Positions 20,999 to 21,928 of a stretch of 64,000 bases of DNA are shown one piece after another. The stretch spans positions 23,918 through 87,917 of the forward strand of contig JAFUEP010000016.1 of the NCBI GenBank assembly GCA_017470345.1. Reading direction: 5' to 3'. Position 1 is the first letter of the stretch, and each line of letters begins with the position of its first letter. A program made the translations under genes and the position numbers. This stretch comes from Prevotella sp. GTDB taxonomy: Bacteria; Bacteroidota; Bacteroidia; Bacteroidales; Bacteroidaceae. The notes beneath the pieces are model-generated. The model saw only the letters and a program-made list of their open reading frames with translations, did not search any database and had not been told where the DNA came from.

Positions 20999-21044
20999 AC
21001 CGCAGAGCTTCGGTAGCGGTCTGGTATATTTCAACGCCCCCTGG

Positions 21045-21066
21045 CCCCCTCTAATCTTAGAGGGGG
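21045..21066. repeat. Palindromic repeat copy 1 (CCCTCTAAnnTTAGAGGG)
   Basis: A 22-base near-perfect palindrome preceded by TCAACGCCCCC (21031-21041). It has the same orientation as the copy at 21670 and the opposite one to the copy at 21170. Confidence 0.85.
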
Positions 21067-21146
21067 AATTAGTTACCTCTGTCGCTGATATGTCAGCAGC
21101 AGGGCTTCACGACTCCCCCATCCGATGCAGGTCTAACCGGCTCCCC

Positions 21147-21207
21147 ATCCGATGCAGGTCTAACTAACTCCCCCTCTAAGATTAGAGGGGGTTAGGGGGC
21201 GTTGACA
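21147..21207. repeat. Left arm of inverted repeat bracketing the DUF559 nuclease core
   Basis: About 60 bases comprising CCGATGCAGGTCTAAC, the palindrome at 21170-21191 and GGGGGCGTTGACA. It is the reverse complement, with a few differences, of 21654-21714. Two 27-base units (ATCCGATGCAGGTCTAAC) precede it from 21112. Confidence 0.8.
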
Positions 21208-21887
21208 CCCCGCCGACCATTGACTCCTCGCGGACCATTGGCTCCCCGCGGATCTTGGACGCCCTCTGCCACTTCTGCCTGCACCTGCAATATGCTATTG
21301 ATGATTGCCTCCGGCTGTTGGAAGACCAGTTTGTTTTCAAACCGCAAGGTGCGGATGCCATACTTTTGCAGCAGTTCTTCGTCGCGAGCCAGATCGTGCT
21401 CGGGCATGGCCCCATAGTAATGGTAGTTGCCGTCAAGTTCGATGGCAAGTCTCAGGGCAGGACAGTAGAAGTCGAGGATGTGTGGGCCTACGGAGAACTG
21501 ACGTCGGAACTGAAGGCCCCCCACCTGCTTTGCCCTGAGATGTCTCCATAGCGCACCCTCTGCGGGTGTGCCGTTGGTGCGGAGATTGCGGCGGAGAGAT
21601 TTCATGTCCCTGGTGTTCATGACATGATCAGTCGTCAAAGGCACCTCGGCGGTTGTCAACGCCCCCCGGCCCCCTCTAATCTTAGAGGGGGAGTTGGTCA
21701 GACCTGCATCGGACGAGGAGTTGGTCAGACCTGCATCAGAGGGGTAGCTGGCTTGACCTGCATCGGAGAGGGAGCTGGTTAGACCTGCATCGGAGGGGGA
21801 GCTGGTGTCACCTTTCTCGTAGCCCCTGCCTGCCCACCTCTTTGCGAAGTCGGCCGCAGCTGCCGCCTGCTGTCTTTCAGTATTCAT
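21192..21887 (-). CDS. DUF559 (VSR-like) endonuclease-domain protein with repeat-encoded termini
   Basis: The ATG at 21887 is chosen because a TATCTTTG promoter element sits at 21921-21928 and the longer frame would start inside it. The 231-residue product has a DUF559 core from about residue 93 to 202: SLRRNLRTNGTPAEGALWRHL, GLQFRRQFSVGPHILDFYCP, LRLAIELDGNYHY and IRTLRFENKLVFQ. The D and ELDG residues fit a PD-(D/E)XK / VSR-like nuclease fold. The N-terminal region is encoded by 27-base DNA repeats (SDAGLTNSS type) ending in SPSKIRGGRG, and the tail DPRGANGPRGVNGRRGVNAP is also repetitive. The same repeats flank the gene in inverted order, so gene and repeats appear to belong together. Confidence 0.8.
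   Translation of the reverse strand: MNTERQQAAAAADFAKRWAGRGYEKGDTSSPSDAGLTSSLSDAGQASYPSDAGLTNSSSDAGLTNSPSKIRGGRGALTTAEVPLTTDHVMNTRDMKSLRRNLRTNGTPAEGALWRHLRAKQVGGLQFRRQFSVGPHILDFYCPALRLAIELDGNYHYYGAMPEHDLARDEELLQKYGIRTLRFENKLVFQQPEAIINSILQVQAEVAEGVQDPRGANGPRGVNGRRGVNAP
21654..21714. repeat. Right arm of inverted repeat, inside the DUF559 coding sequence
   Basis: Contains TCAACGCCCCC, the palindrome at 21670-21691 and GGTCAGACCTGCATCGG; it mirrors 21147-21207. Confidence 0.8.
21684..21810. repeat. 27-base tandem repeats encoding SDAGLTNSS units
   Basis: Four units of 27 bases containing ACCTGCATCGGA and GGAGCTGGT variants follow one another on the top strand; read on the minus strand they encode nine-residue repeats at the N-terminus of the DUF559 protein. 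Confidence 0.85.
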
Positions 21888-21920
21888 TATTATATGATAA
21901 TGTATAGTCGTTTCTGAGTG

Positions 21921-21928
21921 CAAAGATA
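21921..21928 (-). promoter_or_regulatory. -7 element TATCTTTG for the DUF559 gene
   Basis: CAAAGATA on the top strand gives TATCTTTG on the minus strand, 33 bases before the ATG at 21887. Confidence 0.65.

Follow-up and report, generated by a model that had tools for sequence, protein, structure and literature searches.

DUF559 nuclease genes and tailed palindromic repeats: a candidate REP-like system with a Vsr-like nuclease

Palindromic repeats are abundant in bacteria, and many of their families have no known enzyme. Repetitive extragenic palindromes (REPs) and their doublet forms, REP doublets forming hairpins (REPINs), are short tailed palindromes, mostly arranged as inverted doublets, which are dispersed, lineage-specific and flank the gene of an enzyme, the REP-associated tyrosine transposase (RAYT, or TnpA-REP). 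Rickettsia palindromic elements (RPEs) and other intragenic REPs reside in frame at tolerated places in housekeeping genes; RPEs are not known to have a nuclease of their own. Homing endonucleases of the EDxHD type, such as I-Bth0305I, have their nuclease gene within coding sequence. Di Nocera 2013 (PMC3733652) describes the CGTC-tagged REPs as being without a dedicated transposase. Here we analyse a locus in a 64,000-nt stretch of Prevotella sp. DNA (the window; contig JAFUEP010000016.1), where three copies of a palindrome surround a minus-strand gene for a DUF559 nuclease, and compare it with DUF559 loci of other bacteria.

We consider it probable that DUF559 nucleases belong together with C/G-rich tailed palindromes in a single selfish system, in which REP-like repeats are joined by a homing-type nuclease and not by a transposase. 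By sequence comparison, we found the two to be associated and to co-occur, palindromes to be specific to lineages of the nuclease, insertions to lie in frame, sites to exist in empty and filled form, and the fold to be common with a homing endonuclease.

The Prevotella locus and its host genome

The palindromes noticed in an earlier, sequence-only reading of the window are three perfect 22-nt copies (21045-21066, 21170-21191 and 21670-21691) with the sequence CCCCCTCTAA(TC/GA)TTAGAGGGGG. With up to 3 mismatches, their 20-mer core has 3 sites in the window versus 0.03 expected, and 0 of 100 shuffles reached 3. In repeat unit 1 (21031..21075, plus strand) the tail TCAACGCCCCC precedes the palindrome; unit 2 (21161..21205, minus strand), with its tail at 21192-21205, is inverted and 93% complementary to unit 1. 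Together they make up an inverted doublet (21031..21205), built as the dispersed doublets of the host genome. Unit 3 (21656..21698, plus strand), again with the tail first, is located 5' of the gene and is 93% identical to unit 1. The inverted arms said to bracket the nuclease core are present, but the proposed length of about 60 bases was too short, as they measure 94 nt (21117-21210 and 21651-21744; 86% complementary). Units of 27 nt occur outside and inside the gene, as noted in that reading: two outside the gene (21116..21169, minus strand), in inverted order relative to the in-frame units, and others 5' of the nuclease core within the open frame (21684..21818, minus strand; in-frame units at 21711-21818, spacing 27), where their putative translation contains SDAGLT.

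The open frame (21192..21923, minus strand) has a probable start at an in-frame ATG immediately past the palindrome (MNTRDMKSL, first base 21620), and its stop codon is inside the tail of unit 2. Its identification as a DUF559 nuclease holds: Pfam profile PF04480 is matched with an E-value of 3.4e-26 and 91.7 bits, above the gathering score of 20.6, by residues 107-214, the core with the Vsr-like fold (21282..21605, minus strand). The NCBI cut-off for YcjD equivalogs is missed (61.5 vs 218 bits). Columns E26, D54, E65, D67 and H71 are invariant in 24 DUF559 sequences including that of the window, and again in 36. The closest fold is another DUF559 structure and the second closest the homing endonuclease I-Bth0305I; kinship to Vsr is seen as well, which places the protein in the Vsr/EDxHD fold group. 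Transposase families, including the Y1 HUH tyrosine transposases, were absent from the Pfam and NCBIfam matches, the repeat-flanked gene being that of DUF559, and matches to PADLOC and PHROGs were marginal.

The proposal that the repeat forms part of the protein stands at the C-terminus only, where the tail 21192-21205 encodes the terminal residues NAP and the stop codon. Whether palindrome 3 and the SDAGLT units are translated is doubtful and unproven, because the ATG at 21620 lies past the palindrome and relatives have shorter N-terminal parts: open frames comprise 123-212 residues in 12 clade relatives versus 263 in the window, and 4, 43 and 69 residues precede the core in three relatives versus 106 in the window. 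A conserved protein part consisting of palindrome and 27-nt units is not supported. Ahead of these units, the N-terminal MNTERQQAAAAADFAKRWAGRGYEKGDT (21770-21887) resembles the start of a DNA methyltransferase and may be a gene remnant. No host frame runs through the arms at this locus.

The host genome (G000; 2.67 Mb, 61.6% complete) has 30 exact palindrome sites, or 33 if one mismatch is allowed. Of the exact sites, 22 form 11 pairs 95-96 nt apart, two form one pair 82 nt apart, three are those of the window and three are paired with a one-mismatch copy. Outside the window there are thus 15 doublets, dispersed and with related spacers (14 spaced 95-96 nt, one 82; one arm mismatched in 3 of 15), an arrangement of tailed palindromes as known from REP/RAYT systems. 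Since two of the 15 have identical flanks, one doublet may be a duplicated stretch. The dispersed doublets (L016-L029) have a common outer inverted repeat, CAATRTGGTGATAAATGCCCGA, which is absent from the DUF559 locus. We considered an insertion of doublets into the middle of a pre-existing palindrome, which is unsupported: with up to 2 mismatches allowed, the outer repeat GGTGATAAATGCCCGA has 17 sites, each of them at a doublet, and no copy without a doublet was seen among the 17. Among 200 further genomes of the family, one or two copies of the window palindrome (one mismatch allowed) were present in four and none in 196; the expansion is confined to its own genome. The host also encodes two more DUF559 genes (L031 and L030), one in frame ahead of guanylate kinase, the other a 126-residue frame.

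Arms, palindrome counts and lineages across genomes

In our family sample of 201 genomes, 70 had a PF04480 match (61 strong, 9 weak or partial with E >1e-8). A single genome had as many as 8 matches, and as many as 10 in a second sample, pieces being counted in both. For 113 of 124 listed matches at E 6e-24 or better we obtained the DNA, in which a DUF559 profile of our own gave 119 matches and 110 distinct cores, 108 of them with enough flank. Arms of these loci were scored as inverted repeats between both 250-nt flanks, with equal-sized segments of the same loci as controls. A score of at least 12 was reached by 90/108 DUF559 cores versus 1/148 controls. From named records we took the best 80 of more than 563 loci, nearly all Proteobacterial; here 65 of the 77 with enough flank scored at least 13, versus 3/137 controls. 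A phylum-wide sample comprised 150 genomes around G230 (the phylum of a Xanthomonas record), with 29 of 30 loci tested (one stop-broken locus was omitted, and one comes from G230 itself, picked for its DUF559), and gave 20/29 versus 1/58 at the same threshold. Flanking repeats are hence the usual state at DUF559 genes; their general absence would have spoken against the sequence-only reading. The units are built alike in all sets, a C-rich tail being followed by a C/G-rich palindrome, e.g. CCCCTCTCC-GGAGAGGGG, and this build is unchanged in complete named replicons.

Some arms (in L253, L254, L199, L296 and L312) carry a second hairpin, e.g. CTCGGGCGAAGCCCGAG, between palindrome and tail. In cyanobacterial plasmids of three strains (L175-L177), DUF559 and nearby palindromes are found close to DUF1156, in two strains also to DUF499. 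A DUF559 of Dadabacteria (L247) has no arms, and its genome (G233) has only two generic palindromes, a single case that fits the pairing.

Equal palindrome frequencies in genomes without DUF559 would have spoken against a link, but there palindromes are far rarer. At least 5 copies of CCCYYYCCN{1,8}GGRRRGGG were present in 47/61 genomes with strong DUF559 matches versus 16/140 without (odds ratio 26, p 9e-20), and at least 5 copies of CCCTCYCCN{1,10}GGRGAGGG in 23/30 carriers versus 7/119 others (odds ratio 53, p 5e-15) of the second sample, kinship being unmodelled in both; in the latter G230 was dropped and carriers were defined by a DUF559 match at E 1e-10 or better. Reversed control patterns gave 0-8 copies per genome in both samples, as in the count of the window palindrome. 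Reversed patterns are themselves enriched in G030 (20 copies, in a count for the palindrome of another lineage) and G082 (8, in that for the window palindrome), for which no DUF559 match is listed; other palindrome families therefore exist in genomes without a listed DUF559.

In a tree of 188 cores, built from few columns and with unsettled bootstrap values, the window protein falls into a 13-member clade (clade W; support 92/88) apart from the remaining family members. Eleven of the 13 have GC-rich stem-loops of their own type around the gene in 2-5 copies (e.g. CTCCCCCTAAGCTAGGGGGAG in L120 and GTCCCTCTTTGAAGAGGGAC in L121); in L098 and L119 this test found none. The palindrome of a second W lineage has 21, 20, 2 and 1 copies in its four carriers, 8 in one non-carrier and 0-2 in the remaining genomes. 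Across 166 loci, protein identity correlated with palindrome similarity (r 0.27, above all 500 permutations); r was 0.26 in the family set and 0.095, not significant, in the Proteobacterial set. Base composition and common descent may contribute to this correlation.

Units in housekeeping genes and their empty sites

The sister clade has arm-DUF559-arm units, about 500 bp long, in frame within or at the start of housekeeping genes, a placement of repeats also known from RPEs, and many DUF559 domains are part of long open frames of housekeeping proteins. Ten such frames were scanned against Pfam. Four of them, MiaB (L063), a sugar epimerase protein (L037), a SpoIID protein (L077) and a DegT aminotransferase (L116), have their host domains split into at least two stretches. 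In L093 DUF559 stands between parts of a helicase, and in L105 between an epimerase and a C-terminal domain; the other four are fusions of DUF559 with guanylate kinase (L031), YgbB/IspF (L066), GcpE/IspG (L139) and a phosphoglycerate mutase (L046). The joins between host and DUF559 are translated palindromes, e.g. SPLPTSPSRGGE or LPLEGGTEGG. For MiaB, DUF559 is absent from 18 relatives and the insertion site is a variable loop. A second kind of in-frame stretch, resembling a translated repeat (DNGQLTVDNS, IKNEELKIEN, QLSTVNYQ), was observed in the host proteins of L116, L117, L072 and L075, and it differs between the orthologues L116 and L117.

Among 78 family elements with an arm score of at least 14, 64 have an open frame that crosses the downstream arm and enters the following gene on their own strand, versus 24 on the other strand and 18 upstream; 12 show no read-through on either side, including all nine tested W members, that of the window among them. 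The Proteobacterial set has no such bias (28 vs 31 of 60). At leuC, fmt, iorB, argC and ribD (names as read from the translations), a new ATG overlaps the stop codon of the nuclease or adjoins it, and from this ATG the frame runs via the arm into the host protein.

The leuA-leuC junction, compared in nine genomes of one genus, exists in several states. It is empty in L324 and holds a full 508-bp element in L322, where the flanking leuA and leuC sequences share 89-90% identity with the empty allele. In L326 and L327 the core is wholly or mostly lost and the arm with the new N-terminus is retained; L325 and L323 have different DUF559s (L325 compared without its 5' part), L328 is truncated, and L329 and L330 have no DUF559, the native start and a short repeat-like remnant. 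In G021, the 87% identity between two copies is limited to 508 bp, which include the arms. Read in seven species, a Deinococcus operon has the unit at three different junctions in four of them (one shortened) and lacks it in three. Two DegT orthologues share an identical DUF559 but differ in their in-frame solo repeats. No clear target-site duplication was seen at the junctions read. The sister-clade comparisons suggest mobility.

Three other regions were considered. Seven records span the region of the Azospirillum chromids, one with a partial DUF559 match, and are uninformative on mobility. S. meliloti Ak57 was rejected as a strain-level insertion, since no further S. meliloti record spans the region and an empty site is thus lacking. 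For E. coli ycjD (L270, L269), which has an inverted repeat unit 174 nt downstream, the sapF-ycjD-fabI query is held at >=80% by 3,333 of 5,426 genomes. An efflux operon (PMC12817139) replaces ycjD in three examined genomes without it, and a fourth genome has a shortened ycjD; the locus was therefore taken as an exchange and not as a clean pair of empty and filled sites.

Tails distinguish two builds. In the family set they are outside on the 5' side at 48 loci and face the gene at 4, all of clade W; the Proteobacterial set has 31 loci with tails towards the gene and 12 with tails away from it. Automatic assignment failed or gave no clear result at 58/110 and 37/80 loci, respectively. A nuclease enclosed by a doublet resembles a self-mobile unit, and one that stands among doublets, the arrangement seen in the window, is reminiscent of RAYT genes and their REPINs. 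With its tails facing the gene, the window copy appears to be resident and intergenic and not a self-inserting unit.

A proposed nuclease-repeat system and its relation to known elements

The sequence-only reading had taken the locus for a REP/RAYT-like unit with a Vsr-like nuclease. Co-occurrence, flanking arms and the comparative mobility of the sister clade speak for this; the window copy itself does not look self-inserting. We propose that the palindrome, with its stem of 8-10 bp and one-sided C-rich tail, often in an inverted doublet, would be the recognition unit. DUF559 itself, and not another enzyme, would drive movement: the homing-type Vsr-fold nuclease would bind and nick or cut at or beside the palindrome of its own lineage, or at sites which could be filled from it. 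Host recombination repair would then copy non-autonomous doublets, or the autonomous unit of ~500 bp with both arms and DUF559, to other places. Surviving insertions would be those that leave host genes readable, so that autonomous units would be found in frame, either within loops or at the beginning of genes, to which the element would lend a new start codon. The window nuclease would be a resident form, comparable to a RAYT among REPs, and the ~15 dispersed doublets its non-autonomous population.

The alternative that survives best, although improbable, is that the palindromes are ordinary REP-type repeats or miniature inverted-repeat transposable elements moved by another transposase, with DUF559 as a passenger or preferred landing place. 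Two observations weigh for it: 8 of 140 genomes without full-length DUF559, two of them rated 100% complete, have at least 10 palindromes (palindrome-rich are G010, G017, G065, G083, G089, G141, G149 and G165), and the extra outer inverted repeat of the host-genome doublets occurs, among the 17 sites reported, only with them. These genomes also weaken the co-occurrence of palindromes and DUF559, as do 13 of the 61 carriers, which have fewer than 3 copies. On the other hand, arms flank both sides of the gene at most loci and almost never the controls, the palindrome varies with the DUF559 lineage, and arm, gene and arm move as a single block. Less plausible still is that DUF559 acts in mismatch repair as a Vsr-type nuclease that guards methylated sites, with only incidental repeats nearby. 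This has in its favour the fold kinship to Vsr, a hidden Markov model match of YcjD to Vsr (PMC1189080) and Caulobacter VsrA, a DUF559 protein proposed for very-short-patch repair (PMC12907096), but it predicts neither inverted palindromic arms nor several matches per genome nor in-frame insertion into unrelated genes; the Caulobacter gene may be a co-opted member. We give little credence to the idea that the palindromes serve a conserved nuclease operon as terminators or as signals for mRNA processing. Strong hairpins do stand beside genes, and it has often been argued that REPs are RNA elements (PMC3733652), but the palindromes are inside coding sequences in many relatives, doublets with homologous spacers are dispersed, and the 5' side is flanked too. 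Chance or an assembly artefact of low-complexity GC-rich sequence is next to negligible despite the C/G-rich motifs, the many draft assemblies and the reversed control of GC-rich G231 (59 copies vs 215 for the pattern), given the shuffles, the otherwise low reversed controls and the constant build in complete replicons.

In its wider form, our proposal of a joint nuclease-repeat system is less certain but still slightly more likely than not: a class of mobile elements in several bacterial phyla, in which a Vsr/EDxHD-fold nuclease of ~110 residues and a lineage-specific tailed palindrome co-propagate as REPIN-like doublets or as ~500 bp units homing in frame into coding genes, giving them a new start codon or linker, with DUF559 as the missing enzyme of many orphan C/G-rich palindromic repeats. 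The genome comparisons suggest an unrecognised kind of mobile DNA; we found no description of the DUF559-palindrome pairing in our searches of open-access papers, most subscription papers and bioRxiv being outside their coverage. If true, a nuclease partner would account for a domain whose function is unknown, add a new route for selfish DNA to persist inside housekeeping genes without splicing, and provide compact nucleases with their predicted substrate declared by the flanking arms. The pairing lends itself to immediate testing, since the predicted substrate adjoins most of the DUF559 genes examined.

Among known repeats, CGTC REPs share head-to-head doublets, occurrence in Alphaproteobacteria and Bacteroidetes and some intragenic copies; their stems nearly always start with AT pairs (both according to PMC3733652). 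Stem and tail differ here, and an identity of CGTC REPs with these repeats was rejected because ATTCC-type copies are few and distant (4 loci, at a distance of at least ~700 nt from the DUF559 core, none adjoining the gene; none in the 29 phylum-wide loci). E. coli YcjD (b1289) is a DUF559 protein with C-terminus and stop inside a CCCTCACCCCAACCCTCTCCC repeat, but is single-copy. With Vsr and Caulobacter VsrA the nuclease shares fold and active-site type, the genomic behaviour of a mobile unit being the difference. As with homing endonucleases, one site is filled, emptied and refilled; unlike in the I-Bth0305I type, there is no intron or intein and palindromic arms are the bounds; empty and filled alleles are seen, homing being putative. 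Unlike in RPEs, the inserted unit includes the nuclease gene. Compared with REPs and RAYTs, the enzyme is a Vsr-fold nuclease instead of a Y1 HUH transposase, the tail is C-rich instead of GTAG, and the sister clade inserts in frame together with its own gene.
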